Virus record (IMG/VR): IMGVR_UViG_3300031669_002167
Span: 1-20,050 of that record
Strand: one strand, 5' to 3'
DNA from: a virus
DNA length: 20,050 nucleotides
The position numbers and the translations under genes are program-made. The first letter of the stretch is position 1. Every line of letters begins with the position of its first letter. The notes beneath the pieces were generated by a model, which worked only from the letters and a program-made list of their open reading frames with translations, searched no databases and was not told the DNA's origin. Positions 5,528-9,623 of the stretch are shown piece after piece.

Positions 5528-5548
5528 AGCTCACCTTGCGGTAAATCG

Positions 5549-5584
5549 CCCTAGTCGTGAACATATTTGCGGCTAGGGTTTTTT
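5549..5584 (+). terminator. Rho-independent terminator
   Basis: CCCTAGTCG (5549-5557) pairs with CGGCTAGGG (5570-5578) over nine positions with one G-T wobble. The 12-base loop can add up to four weaker pairs. Six T residues (5579-5584) follow at once. It closes the single-gene unit 4859-5527 and lies right before the PAS-protein gene. Confidence 0.85.
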
Positions 5585-5608
5585 ATGGCGTTTACTGAAA
5601 GGTGTCCT

Positions 5609-6223
5609 GTGTTCGATATAGCATTTATAACTCATGAAACAGTAGTGGCATTGGTCACGTTGGTAGGAGCGGCTTGTACGGCATTAATATTCCTATGGAG
5701 GATTTTTAAAACGTGCGGAACATACTTAAGAGATAATGAAGATTTTAAAACTTCATTGGAAACCATTAAGAACGAAGTAACGCCAAACGGCGGGAAATCA
5801 CTGAAAGATATTGTTACCGGGCTAAAGAAAACGTGCGAGGACATATCAGACAGGCAAAAGGTAGCAGATCAACGGTCAAAGGCTGCGCTCCATTATCATA
5901 TGGACGCTCTTTTTGAGATTGATTCGGAAGGAAGAATGACGTGGTGTAACGACAGATTTCGAGAATTAACATCTGACATTGGAGACATCACCTCAGGATC
6001 AGATTGGATTAGTATAGTCCATGACGAAAGTCGAGGAGACTTTATAGATGAACTACACTCTTGTTTAGAAATGTGTAGAAAGGTTGATATCGAAACCAAG
6101 AACGTAAAAGGCGTTGGTGTAAGATTCGTTGGTTATCCTTACAGGACTTCCTCATCAACCCAAAAGGGCTTCTTGATTAATTGTTTTTTTCACGACCTGA
6201 ACTCTGAAAGGGTATCACTATGA
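5609..6223 (+). CDS. Membrane-anchored PAS-domain protein
   Basis: The chosen start is GTG 5609, which has GAAAGGTG (5597-5604) upstream. ATG 5585 in the same frame directly follows the terminator T run and has no ribosome binding site. From the GTG the protein has 204 residues: one hydrophobic segment (11-31), a charged helical linker with Pro-Asn-Gly-Gly-Lys-Ser-Leu-Lys-Asp (59-67), a motif often seen in phage proteins, and a PAS-like domain (about 97-196). PAS features include Leu-Phe-Glu-Ile-Asp (101-105), Gly108-Arg-Met-Thr-Trp, Cys113-Asn-Asp-Arg-Phe, and Trp133-Ile-Ser-Ile-Val-His138. No kinase or output domain follows, so it would act as a membrane-bound sensor or dimer platform. Its stop overlaps the holin-like start by 4 bases, which links it to that gene. 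Confidence 0.75.
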   Translation: MFDIAFITHETVVALVTLVGAACTALIFLWRIFKTCGTYLRDNEDFKTSLETIKNEVTPNGGKSLKDIVTGLKKTCEDISDRQKVADQRSKAALHYHMDALFEIDSEGRMTWCNDRFRELTSDIGDITSGSDWISIVHDESRGDFIDELHSCLEMCRKVDIETKNVKGVGVRFVGYPYRTSSSTQKGFLINCFFHDLNSERVSL

Positions 6224-6441
6224 GCCAAAACTCACCAAAATTTAAACTAGACATAGCCGACTTCGTAACTGTCGGTAAAACAGCCTTGCTGGTTGGTGGA
6301 GCAGCAGCATTAACATATATTGCTCAAAATTTGGGGGCGATTGATCTTGGGACTTACGGTCCACTGATTGTTCCAGTTGTAACTCTTGTCCTTGACACTG
6401 TTGTCAAATGGCTGCGAGATAACAGCAAAAAAAAAGACTAA
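6220..6441 (+). CDS. Holin-like small membrane protein
   Basis: A 73-residue protein starting at ATG 6220 in an ATGA overlap. It has two hydrophobic segments, about residues 19-36 and 46-65, joined by a short loop (Asn-Leu-Gly-Ala-Ile-Asp-Leu-Gly-Thr-Tyr-Gly). The tail is strongly positive (Arg-Asp-Asn-Ser-Lys-Lys-Lys-Asp). This size, two-segment topology and charged tail fit class II holins, which pierce the inner membrane at a set time to release lysis enzymes. The peptidase gene follows after 14 bases. The family is assigned by architecture, not by a sequence signature, so another small membrane role remains possible. Confidence 0.65.
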   Translation: MSQNSPKFKLDIADFVTVGKTALLVGGAAALTYIAQNLGAIDLGTYGPLIVPVVTLVLDTVVKWLRDNSKKKD

Positions 6442-6455
6442 CACAGGAGACTGAC

Positions 6456-7406
6456 ATGGGATTTGAAGCTGAAAGTTGGGTGCCAGATTTTAGTTCGCCT
6501 AAAAGTATTTGGAAAGCTTATCGCCAAGGGTATATGGGCGCGGTTTGTGATCCAGAAGAAACGGCGGCCCTGTTGGCGGCGTTAAAAACTCCATTGTTTG
6601 GTCCTTGTGCCTATAAACTGTATGGTGCGGGAGAAGGGAAGCTCTCCATGCCATTTAAATCGCTGCTAAAGTTTGACCCAAAGTTTGGACCGCTAGAGGC
6701 CCAGACCACGGGCGACTGCGTATCTCATGCAACTAGAAATGCCGTAGACATTACTAGGGCGGTTGAAATTGACATCAAGGGGGAAGCAGAATCATTTGAG
6801 GGGCGTGGTGCCACCGAAGGTATCTATCAATCCAGACCTTGGTCTGGCGAGGGTATGACATGTTCTGGTGCCGCCAAGTATATCAATTCAGAAGGCGGAC
6901 TACTGATTAGAAAAGATTATGGAGCAGTCGATTTATCAGTATATAATTCTAGTCTAGGGTCTAGTAAAAGAATTCCATTTAGTGTTTACGCAACTGAAGC
7001 TAAAAAGCATCAGGTAAAAACTATTTCAATGATTACGACTCTAGAAGAAGCCCGGGACGCGATTGCCAACGGATACTCAATTTCGGTATGTTCTGATGTT
7101 GGATTTTCTAGTAAAAGGGATTCAAAGGGTATCGCAGAGCGATCAGGAAATTGGAACCACGCAATGGCATGGATTGCCTGTGATGACACGCGGGAAAGAT
7201 CAAATGGACTACTGTTCTTGGTCCAGAACAGTTGGGGATTATGGAATTCAGGACCAAGAGTTCATGGTCAACCAGAAGGTAGCTTTTGGATTAAAGAAAG
7301 CCCAGCCAGAGCCATGTTAGCACAGCAAGGATCGTGGGTCTTTAGTGATGTGGAAGGTTTTCCAGCTAGAGACTTACCAGATTACGGTACAGCATCCTAT
7401 CTCTAA
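6456..7406 (+). CDS. Papain-like (C1 family) cysteine peptidase
   Basis: A 316-residue protein starting at ATG 6456, with AGGAGA upstream. The papain active-site set is complete: Gln83 (oxyanion hole) and Cys88 in Gln-Thr-Thr-Gly-Asp-Cys-Val-Ser-His; His235 in Asn-Trp-Asn-His-Ala-Met; and Asn258 in Gln-Asn-Ser-Trp-Gly (257-261). The tail has the usual Gly-Ser-Phe-Trp-Ile strand (275-279). There is no signal peptide and no obvious propeptide, so it is probably made active in the cytoplasm. It could cut peptide crosslinks in the host wall after holin action, process virion proteins, or attack a host protein; context next to a holin-like gene favours the first, but this is inference. C1 peptidases are uncommon in phages compared with other lysis enzymes. 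Confidence 0.85.
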   Translation: MGFEAESWVPDFSSPKSIWKAYRQGYMGAVCDPEETAALLAALKTPLFGPCAYKLYGAGEGKLSMPFKSLLKFDPKFGPLEAQTTGDCVSHATRNAVDITRAVEIDIKGEAESFEGRGATEGIYQSRPWSGEGMTCSGAAKYINSEGGLLIRKDYGAVDLSVYNSSLGSSKRIPFSVYATEAKKHQVKTISMITTLEEARDAIANGYSISVCSDVGFSSKRDSKGIAERSGNWNHAMAWIACDDTRERSNGLLFLVQNSWGLWNSGPRVHGQPEGSFWIKESPARAMLAQQGSWVFSDVEGFPARDLPDYGTASYL

Positions 7407-7416
7407 GGAGAAGACT

Positions 7417-8130
7417 ATGAAGACTATGTTTTTTACTTCTGGCACCATGATTACTACAGCGGTCTTGCTTTCCTATGGTGGGTTTGGCGGAATGTCTGAC
7501 ACAGACTGGAGACCGTACATCAGCACTAGGCTTGCCCGCGTTATTATGCTGGAAGATTCAACTCCGGACGTTAATCCAGACACGCCAGTTGCCTTATGCG
7601 ACGGTTCTGGATGGATTACCCATGGGGATGGACATCAAACGCGTTGCCCCGGATGCATCGCCTGCGAAAATAACAGAGAACGATCTGTTGTTGAGCCAGA
7701 AATCGTAGAACCTCCGGTCGTGGAGCCAGCGAAAAAGCCACAAATTCAACCTCCAGCAATTGTTGAACCGGTTGAACCATCTATAATTGAGCCTGCCCAA
7801 CCCGCTAAGCCACAAGTTCCCCAACCGCAGGCCGTTCCTCCCCCAGCCAAGTATAAAATTTATCATTTTGGAGCGAGTTGGTGTTTTCCATGCACAATGA
7901 TGAAACGCACTTGGAATAGCGAATCGGTTCTACGCAAACTAATCGAATTGGACGCAGAAATCTTCTACCTTGATAACGATAACCCAGAGCATATGGATCT
8001 TTTCCGTCAGTTTGGTATTTCAAGTTTTCCAACGATTATTATCGTAAAAGAAGACTACGCCTTTTTCCGATGGTCTGGATTTAGGACTATTCCGCAGACG
8101 ATCAAAATTTTACAGGACAATTTAAAATGA
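7417..8130 (+). CDS. Exported thioredoxin-fold protein with zinc-binding and proline-rich regions
   Basis: I chose ATG 7417, which has TAAGGAG (7404-7410) upstream; the longer open frame would overlap the peptidase gene. The 237-residue protein has a hydrophobic leader (about 4-24), a DnaJ-like zinc motif (Cys61-Asp-Gly-Ser-Gly, then Gly-Asp-Gly-His at 70-73 and Cys77-Pro-Gly-Cys80 with Cys83), a long Pro/Glu/Val linker (91-143) with repeated Val-Glu-Pro units, and a thioredoxin domain (146-237). The redox motif is Trp155-Cys156-Phe-Pro-Cys159 and the cis-proline is Pro205. It would form or reduce disulfides outside the cytoplasm. Possible clients are the exported proteins encoded around it. 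Its stop overlaps the next start by 4 bases. Confidence 0.85.
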   Translation: MKTMFFTSGTMITTAVLLSYGGFGGMSDTDWRPYISTRLARVIMLEDSTPDVNPDTPVALCDGSGWITHGDGHQTRCPGCIACENNRERSVVEPEIVEPPVVEPAKKPQIQPPAIVEPVEPSIIEPAQPAKPQVPQPQAVPPPAKYKIYHFGASWCFPCTMMKRTWNSESVLRKLIELDAEIFYLDNDNPEHMDLFRQFGISSFPTIIIVKEDYAFFRWSGFRTIPQTIKILQDNLK

Positions 8131-8519
8131 ACATTTTCAAAACCGCAGAGATAGCTGCCGGTATTATGTTGGAAAAAAAGCTCGTTGATAGAATATGTAT
8201 CTACATTCAAGCCAAAGAAAAAAACTTTTCTTTAGATCCTGAGACAATTAAAGCAATTCTTAATTGCATTATTGCCATCGCTGGACTATTATATAAGTGT
8301 TATGGACACGATCCGTCACAATACTACGGGGTTGTGCAAAACCCGGGGCTATTTAGCCGGTGGATGGTATCTCTTTATACACGAAAGTATTTCAGGTTTA
8401 AGCCCTCAGATCAAAGGGAAATTATGTGTAGCGCCATGATGGATACGGCGAAAGGAATGTCAGAAAAGGAAATTCAACAATTAATATCATATGCCAATGG
8501 GTTAAGGAGTAAAACTTAA
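8127..8519 (+). CDS. Hypothetical protein, 130 residues
   Basis: The protein starts at ATG 8127 within an ATGA overlap with the thioredoxin-like gene. It is mostly helical. Residues about 42-57 form a hydrophobic stretch (Ile-Leu-Asn-Cys-Ile-Ile-Ala-Ile-Ala-Gly-Leu-Leu-Tyr) that could be a membrane segment or a buried helix. The part after it is basic and aromatic. I do not recognise a family. Its place in the cassette, coupled on both sides, suggests a role with its membrane-facing neighbours. Confidence 0.75.
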   Translation: MNIFKTAEIAAGIMLEKKLVDRICIYIQAKEKNFSLDPETIKAILNCIIAIAGLLYKCYGHDPSQYYGVVQNPGLFSRWMVSLYTRKYFRFKPSDQREIMCSAMMDTAKGMSEKEIQQLISYANGLRSKT

Positions 8520-8896
8520 TGAGTACGTTTCAAATTGTGATGCTGGCTGGCGCTGCAGCTTTAGCAGTTAGTATTTTTTGGCCGCAAATACTAGAGTTTG
8601 CACACCAATTGCTAGAGCGTCCAGATACGCCAATCATTACACCAGCCCCACTGCCGCCTCCAACTCCAGCCCCTGTTCCAGACGAACTTCTACATTTGCA
8701 GGCGACAGAGTTGGTAGCGATTATTGCTTGCTGGGAAACCCTAAAGATAAACTGCATCAAAGCAGGCATGGGTGAGGCCGCCGTTGAATTGAACAAAATT
8801 TTCCCACTATTCGCTTTGGGCAAGAGTAAGATTAAAACCAAGGACTATCCCCTCGACTTCATTTCATTGACAGACGGCGAGGTGAAGAATGTCTAA
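8519..8896 (+). CDS. Small membrane-anchored protein with proline-rich linker
   Basis: A 125-residue protein with ATG 8519 overlapping the preceding TAA by one base (TAATG), with AAGGAG at 8504-8509 upstream. Residues 5-22 form a hydrophobic N-terminal anchor. Residues 36-54 are a linker of Pro, Ala and Thr. Residues 55-125 form a mainly helical, soluble domain with two cysteines near 71 and 79. Anchor, Pro linker and small domain repeat the plan of the protein at 1297, although the end domains differ. It would face the periplasm or the cytoplasm depending on insertion. No family was recognised. Confidence 0.75.
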   Translation: MSTFQIVMLAGAAALAVSIFWPQILEFAHQLLERPDTPIITPAPLPPPTPAPVPDELLHLQATELVAIIACWETLKINCIKAGMGEAAVELNKIFPLFALGKSKIKTKDYPLDFISLTDGEVKNV

Positions 8897-9368
8897 AGGT
8901 GTAAAAATAATTCTACTTATCGTTCTAGTTATCGGTGGACTATGGGGAGAAAAGATTGTTGATCTTGTAAAAAACAACGTTGAAATTGTTCTTCCGTCGC
9001 CGACCCCAACCGTGCCAATTGATGAACCATCTATCGCTTTCAAAAGTGCCGTATTGCCAATATCAGAGCTTTATATCACACCAGCAGACGCTAGCCAAAT
9101 CTCCAATTTCTTCCTAGAGTTGGCAAGCGTGGTAAAAAACGACCCCGGGTTTATCGTGTCGACATCTATTTTCCGCGAATTCAATATTACTTCCGGAGGT
9201 CTGAATTTTGCTGGGACAACTTTGAAAAATAAGTATCCTAACTTGGGAGAAATGATAGACACAACCATTGTGCTTACTGTTGGAAAAGAAAGTGTACCAC
9301 TAGACCCCGCTAAGAGGTCAGATTTGGTAGACTGTTTGAAAGCCATAGCATGGGCCGTACACCAATAA
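8889..9368 (+). CDS. Exported or membrane-anchored protein with proline-rich stretch
   Basis: A 159-residue protein starting at ATG 8889, overlapping the gene before it by 8 bases. A GGCGAGG stretch (8877-8883) lies just upstream. Residues 1-20 hold a basic start and a hydrophobic core, like an uncleaved anchor or a signal peptide. A Pro/Thr stretch (36-47) follows, then an alpha/beta-looking domain. It is the third exported-looking protein in a row, and its C-terminus has no cysteine pair or lipobox. No family was recognised. A spanin-like or scaffold role could be imagined, but nothing in the sequence proves it. Confidence 0.75.
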   Translation: MSKGVKIILLIVLVIGGLWGEKIVDLVKNNVEIVLPSPTPTVPIDEPSIAFKSAVLPISELYITPADASQISNFFLELASVVKNDPGFIVSTSIFREFNITSGGLNFAGTTLKNKYPNLGEMIDTTIVLTVGKESVPLDPAKRSDLVDCLKAIAWAVHQ

Positions 9369-9532
9369 TAGATGCCATCGTCGAGGGCATTATTGAAACG
9401 CTAGACTTAGATAAAGAATTCATCAATAAAACGAAAGCCATCATGGAAATGGTATCCTTCGTAGAGGAAAATGGCGACGACGTGATCCTAATACAAATTG
9501 GTGATAACATTGAAATAAAAATTACTCGTTAG
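9350..9532 (+). CDS. Hypothetical 60-residue acidic protein
   Basis: ATG 9350 starts a 60-residue frame that overlaps the previous gene by 19 bases and ends 18 bases before a terminator. The protein is acidic and probably helical in its first 35 residues, followed by two short strands (Val-Ile-Leu-Ile-Gln-Ile and Ile-Glu-Ile-Lys-Ile). It has no signal or membrane segment. The last place in the transcript and an intact frame support it as a gene; no family is evident. Confidence 0.6.
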   Translation: MGRTPIIDAIVEGIIETLDLDKEFINKTKAIMEMVSFVEENGDDVILIQIGDNIEIKITR

Positions 9533-9550: not shown

Positions 9551-9585
9551 ATCCTTGTGCCACGGAGGGCGCAGGGATTTTTTTT
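9551..9585 (+). terminator. Rho-independent terminator
   Basis: Bases 9551-9561 (ATCCTTGTGCC) pair with 9568-9578 (GGCGCAGGGAT) over 11 positions with two G-T wobbles and a 6-base loop. Eight T residues run from 9578 to 9585. It ends the envelope cassette and insulates the nrd promoter that begins ten bases later. Confidence 0.9.
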
Positions 9586-9594
9586 ACTTTTAGG

Positions 9595-9623
9595 TTGACA
9601 AAATCGTATGTATACAATATAAT
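9595..9623 (+). promoter_or_regulatory. Perfect-consensus sigma-70 promoter for the nrd operon
   Basis: TTGACA (9595-9600) and TATAAT (9618-9623) are separated by exactly 17 bases, the ideal layout for housekeeping sigma. Transcription should start near 9630, about 20 bases before nrdA ATG 9651, with AAAGGA (9639-9644) as ribosome binding site. An 8-base palindrome, TGTATACA (9609-9616), sits in the spacer and could bind a repressor. Such a strong host-type promoter suggests early expression of the nucleotide and replication genes. Confidence 0.92.

Follow-up and report, generated by a model that had tools for sequence, protein, structure and literature searches.

What might a phage do with a transcription unit that joins a holin-like protein, a papain-like peptidase and an exported thioredoxin to a set of small membrane proteins? 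The question is raised by positions 5609-9532 of the IMG/VR virus fragment IMGVR_UViG_3300031669_002167, the whole 20,050-base stretch of which is referred to here as the window. A sequence-only reading had described eight consecutive genes between two strong terminators, and had proposed a joint role in lysis or envelope remodelling in which a thioredoxin and a PAS protein take part. All eight open reading frames are found on the + strand between the two terminators, as follows.

5548..5579, + strand: upstream intrinsic terminator, separating g09 from the cassette (14-pair stem, T-run)
5609..6223, + strand: gene A, PAS protein, GTG start behind GAAAGG
6220..6441, + strand: gene B, 73 aa, hydrophobic, read as two TM segments and a basic tail; holin slot
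6456..7406, + strand: gene C (PEP), predicted papain-like cysteine peptidase, no export signal
6702-6704 (Q83), 6717-6719 (C88), 7158-7160 (H235) and 7227-7229 (N258), + strand: catalytic codons of C
7417..8130, + strand: gene D, exported protein, ATG behind AAGGAG
8127..8519, + strand: gene E, 130 aa, one hydrophobic segment; family profile in 60/98 loci
8519..8896, + strand: gene F, N-terminal TM, Pro-rich linker, short C-terminal domain; family profile in 88/98 loci
8889..9368, + strand: gene G, N-terminal TM, linker, compact helical bundle; 91/98 loci
9350..9532, + strand: gene H, small soluble protein, optional; family patchy, mainly in PAS-type loci
9551..9578, + strand: closing intrinsic terminator of the cassette (11-pair stem, T-run)

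Intergenic gaps within the window cassette are at most 14 nt, with short overlaps at the other junctions. In relatives the median gaps are +1 (PAS to holin slot), +6 (holin slot to PEP), -1 (PEP-D), -4 (D-E), -1 (E-F), -8 (F-G) and -4 (G-H), and by this comparison the junctions appear tighter than chance would give, equally so in the relatives. Terminator-like sites are absent from the relatives' PAS-holin, holin-PEP, PEP-D, E-F, F-G and G-H gaps, while the D-E gap has one in 1 of 68 cases and the g09-PAS gap in 27 of 50; terminators in relatives lie outside the cassette with rare exceptions. The comparison of junctions and terminators across relatives supports a real, conserved transcription unit and backs the co-transcription of all eight genes that had been proposed. 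Past the closing terminator and before nrdA, the window carries a sigma-70 promoter of perfect consensus (TTGACA-17-TATAAT, 9595-9623). Elsewhere in the window, at 1297-1731, a TM protein has a layout resembling those of F and G, with a linker rich in Pro/Ala and, at its C-terminus, a RuvA_C-like domain (4.7e-5).

A single-sequence search with C recovers 71 relatives in IMG/VR at 56-77% identity, and an alignment search recovers at least 586. Among the 98 loci with enough downstream sequence, C is accompanied by D in 92, G in 91, a holin-slot protein in 89 and F in 88. The sequence-only reading had named beforehand two findings that together would count against joint lysis, a gene order not shared by related phages and a place in the particle for the peptidase and its neighbours; the order is kept across the 98 loci, so the cassette survives the first of these. 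Upstream neighbours vary by group and comprise g09-PAS, a glycosyltransferase or nrdB. Searches of 50,697 deposited phage records return no relative of C and none of B, G, short D or C14, a second holin-slot protein; D with its thioredoxin gives weak matches there, mostly to phage thioredoxins. The cassette has no relative in deposited phage genomes, and its carriers are large uncultured phages, confirmed as tailed by tape-measure, terminase and ClpP-like genes. In bacterial genome sets, C is matched at 68-75% in SAR202 and Lokiarchaeota MAGs, and these matches look like mis-binned phage contigs. Chromosomal homologues are rare (Mucilaginibacter and Flexithrix, 33-45%), this class amounting to 2 matches in 295 genomes with the query genome counted.

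The identification of C as a C1 peptidase holds at the level of fold and active site. Q83, C88, H235 and N258, in Gln-Cys-His-Asn order, are invariant in 39/39 relatives. An AlphaFold2 model (mean pLDDT 86.6) shows a two-domain papain fold that aligns with xylellain (PDB 3ois) over 236 residues (Z 21.6, rmsd 3.1, 18% identity) and with procathepsins at Z 17-20. Even with a threshold of E 10, Pfam assigns no family, Peptidase_C1 included, to C of the window, so its fold and active site class C as papain-like but not as Pfam C1. PDB sequence searches with C and with its profile give no match. On the model and the tetrad, C is confidently predicted to be a papain-like peptidase of the C1A type. 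The N-terminal 60 residues align with cathepsin pro-regions, including that of procathepsin X (1deu, Z 18.5); the title of that entry describes the proregion as covalently linked to the active-site cysteine. Four cysteines of C are invariant (31, 88, 136 and 212), and C31 lies within this N-terminal segment; by analogy with procathepsin X it may latch the catalytic cysteine in a redox-dependent way. At a contig edge (L070, 3-200), the N-terminal PEP reading finishes with FLANGCIAHN immediately ahead of the catalytic Cys; this sequence resembles an intein C-terminus, as if an intein had been inserted at the active site.

C shares 74-80% identity among the three fully read records, compared with 66-72% for the candidate major head protein and 50-64% for terminase. 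Its conservation is nearly that of replication enzymes, which is unusual for a lysin. In record G003, C and the cassette lie in the metabolism/replication arm, far from the structural genes, and the cassette neighbourhood includes nrdA/nrdB and a sigma-like factor. It may be that C cleaves one or more host proteins inside the cell early in infection. In that case the membrane proteins would form a complex in the envelope for recruiting targets or protecting the membrane, and the small TM protein would be no holin. The very high conservation of an enzyme without an export signal, its place in the metabolism arm by nrdA/nrdB and the sigma-like factor, and the cytosolic-type homologues on Bacteroidota chromosomes are all in keeping with such a takeover of the host. 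However, every constant partner of C has an export or membrane signal, all complete loci contain a holin-slot protein and the searches found no other lysin; early cleavage of host proteins is accordingly judged rather unlikely.

The call of a holin-like protein in the cassette depends on comparison of the loci. B has one segment only above a strict hydropathy threshold, and its own match to a PHROG holin profile is weak (E 0.098), so its assignment as a holin comes from analysis of the slot. The 93 complete loci comprise 48 with a B-type protein and 45 with C14, with 0 having both and 0 neither. B-type genes always stand before C and C14-type genes always after it. L070 was left out of this set as truncated; it carries a B-type protein where C14 would otherwise stand. 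Slot type changes twice on the PEP tree, and the exclusive slot tracks clades with few independent switches. For C14, up to 21 of 27 members match PHROG holin families (best 1.6e-5). Homology between B and C14 is undetected and the two are unsupported as homologues (hhalign probability 2%). The holin-like part of the proposal rests on a slot that is always filled and on the profile matches of C14; the match of B itself is weak.

C14 is also present without PEP in 30 related loci, showing that the holin and the peptidase are separable. Of these loci, 13 have g09 no more than two genes upstream, 11 have a membrane dipeptidase (M19) close by and 20 have a small TM protein nearby (clusters k23, k33 and k62, of which k33 and k62 have a coiled coil). 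D and G are absent from C14 loci that lack C, except for 6 edge-truncated cassettes. One PEP-less relative (L189, 3646-5572) encodes near its C14 holin both a matrixin with an RR-type N-terminus (PF00413, 9.8e-32) and a membrane dipeptidase (PF01244, 1.4e-50). Besides matrixin, a trypsin-like protease is also encoded by related phages. A membrane dipeptidase M19 occurs in a PEP-bearing record as well (L144, 5425-6636, record G005; 3.9e-51).

The downstream genes would supply the envelope side of the cassette. Most genes had been credited with a membrane or export segment, which applies to the constant partners D, F and G but not to C and H. D has an N-terminal signal/anchor, the cysteine motif CDGSGWITHGDGHQTRCPGC, a Pro-rich linker and a C-terminal thioredoxin domain (about 7849-8121). 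This domain carries WCFPC, matches Pfam Thioredoxin_2 (2.2e-7) and PHROG thioredoxin (1.4e-12), and exceeds the curated cut-offs of PF13098 (31.6 bits, cut-off 27) and PF00085 (30.4, cut-off 23.5). In relatives the constant part of D is the exported CxGxGxIxxGDGHxTxCPx[CH] motif and not the thioredoxin, and every group has an export/anchor segment on D in the form of a signal peptide, a lipobox or a TM anchor. In one clade, comprising 18 loci, D and the G domain form a single fused protein, which places D and G in the same compartment. The AF2 model of G (pLDDT 91.3) is a helical bundle with no confident PDB match (best Foldseek E 1.2, best Z 6.6), a result that does not in itself prove a new fold. 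Pfam and PHROG profile searches with window C, F and G give nothing above noise.

The exported thioredoxin that had been noticed is indeed present on window D, but it is not general to the cassette, occurring in 33/93 loci with 7 changes on the PEP tree. On these counts it was rejected as the cassette core and is best regarded, from its distribution, as an optional accessory. This bears on the idea that the membrane proteins and C alter the cell surface without lysis, as in envelope remodelling or superinfection exclusion, with the thioredoxin maintaining exported thiols or countering oxidants. D is exported, F and G are anchored and the thioredoxin domain is DsbD-like, all as such a role would have it, and phage thioredoxins have been proposed as an oxidant defence (PMC6802176). 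Yet without a holin C would have no way out of the cytosol. Two thirds of loci also lack the thioredoxin, which rules out redox defence as the core function, and surface alteration without lysis seems improbable.

The PAS protein is similarly confined to part of the family. A starts at a GTG, and an in-frame ATG upstream at 5585 overlaps the terminator T-run. Its product has one TM near the N-terminus, a coiled-coil/TNGG linker and a C-terminal PAS domain (nt about 5882-6199), which basic residues after the TM suggest is cytosolic. The window protein matches the PAS profile weakly (E 0.004; 18 bits against a Pfam gathering score of 27), so the assignment is secured only by relatives, 10/25 of which match PAS_9 (best 1.9e-7). 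In G005 and G007 the protein in the A position adjoining g09 has a TM and a coiled coil without PAS. The PAS domain of the proposed anchor is therefore backed by relatives but is not general. The PAS protein was rejected as the cassette core, other lineages being PAS-less with a protein still beside g09, and on this comparison it is an accessory rather than the heart of the system.

If C is a lysin, no second one is evident in these phages. Searches of 12 related, possibly incomplete records (80-174 kb) give no match for Amidase_2, Phage_lysozyme, SLT, M15_4, M23, CHAP or NlpC/P60, and all seven families register in control genomes. Lysin families beyond the seven could exist in the 12 records. 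Four long structural proteins of G003 show no lysin domain, and ten further G003 proteins show no match to PHROG lysis families. Searches for GH108 and for a T4-like capsid (PF07068) gave no match and were silent in the control genomes too, hence they are uninformative. Since no ordinary cell-wall-cutting enzyme was found in these phages, their hosts are possibly burst by digestion of protein.

A role in the virion would give C a different task, packaged in the particle or acting in its maturation or entry, with its neighbours as assembly factors. Tail-fibre-like genes do lie between C and D in L056-L064, and the upstream g09 appears to resemble a particle protein. As a prohead protease C was judged unlikely, because a ClpP-like protease adjoins the terminase gene and would serve head maturation. 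C is also distant from the structural arm in G003 and the signal peptides of D are unsuited to a virion protein, making a place in the particle very unlikely. Other G003 genes include a MotA/TolQ/ExbB-family protein (L130, 19925-21671; PF01618, 1.6e-8) with two membrane-protein neighbours, one ExbD-like by eye, and an HSP20 family chaperone (L131, 55449-55859; PF00011, 9.2e-11).

The nature of the host affects what C might cut. DUF1501 proteins are encoded in G003 (23356 and 82759), G005 (101261-104957) and many PEP loci, at one to three per fully read record; several have Tat-like signals and one matches PF07394 at 8e-81. DUF1501 is abundant in planctomycetes, and together with the phage genes this makes a planctomycete a plausible host. 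The closest plasmid relative of DUF1501 here is from Singulisphaera, a planctomycete, which is only suggestive of the host. Among the papers searched, none was found to join planctomycetes, DUF1501 and phage. The planctomycete wall was described as a disulfide-bonded protein sacculus (PMC2754498), and peptidoglycan was later found in planctomycete walls (PMC5147048). If the host, a planctomycete for instance, has an envelope rich in protein and bonded by disulfides, lysis might proceed by proteolysis and disulfide reduction, not by peptidoglycan hydrolysis. The exported thioredoxin and the cysteine-motif protein would reduce or rearrange disulfides while the holin frees the protease; this more specific version is considered unlikely.

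A role in lysis or at the envelope is the best-supported reading of the joint function that had been proposed, given the invariant holin slot, the cytosolic papain-like enzyme, the exported partners and the lack of a detected canonical lysin; the thioredoxin and PAS parts of that proposal do not generalise. The evidence is evenly balanced as to whether the cassette is a host-lysis (exit) module with a holin-released papain-like lysin and envelope partners. In such a module the holin would be the small membrane protein, which is B in the window and a different, unrelated protein, C14, in sister lineages, and C would accumulate in the cytosol, for lack of an export signal, until released. C would then take the place of a classical endolysin by cutting protein or peptide bonds of the envelope. 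D, F and G, and also E, would be envelope partners with domains predicted outside the inner membrane, positioning or activating the protease or disrupting outer layers in the manner of spanins. A may act as a regulator associated with the holin, and the thioredoxin, where D has one, may keep exported thiols reduced. The observations beneath this module are the conserved unit, the invariant tetrad, the predicted fold, the D export signals, the exclusive slot and the finding of no other lysin; from them we infer lysis itself, the substrate of C and the parts played by A, D, E, F and G. The main objections are the high conservation of C and the placement of the cassette in the metabolism arm. If true, the lysis reading would define a protease-based exit mechanism for widespread large aquatic phages, with D, E, F and G as a ready set of candidate envelope-acting proteins.

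Several known systems share parts of this arrangement. CHAP, NlpC/P60 and C39-type cysteine endolysins belong, like C, to the papain superfamily and use Cys-His catalysis, whereas the alignment of C covers the entire two-domain C1A fold of xylellain and procathepsins, and no CHAP or NlpC/P60 match occurs in the 12 records. A precedent for C1 in a putative phage lysin is the annotated 'endolysin' of Alicyclobacillus phage MMB025, which has Peptidase_C1 (3e-6). Unlike C, its C1 domain is linked to GH-like and PG_binding_1 domains, and relatedness to C is undemonstrated (a match to a bacterial homologue has E 0.2, and the profile score is negative). Xylellain, from Xylella fastidiosa (PDB 3ois), is the closest solved fold to C but is a cellular enzyme with no phage context. 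D shares an exported WCxPC thioredoxin with DsbD C-terminal/Thioredoxin_2 domains, although in D it is fused to a cysteine-motif protein and is optional in the cassette. A similar layout is that of the holin-endolysin-spanin cassettes of tailed phages, in which a small membrane protein of pore type likewise adjoins a papain-superfamily hydrolase lacking a signal, and anchored envelope proteins are included. Spanins pair an inner-membrane coiled-coil protein with an outer-membrane lipoprotein; here D is a lipoprotein in part of the loci and F and G are TM-anchored, but G is a helical bundle. In contrast to those cassettes, the enzyme here is C1A-type with no recognised cell-wall-binding domain, no Rz/Rz1 pair is recognisable, D, E, F and G are extra, and the holin slot is filled by two unrelated proteins.
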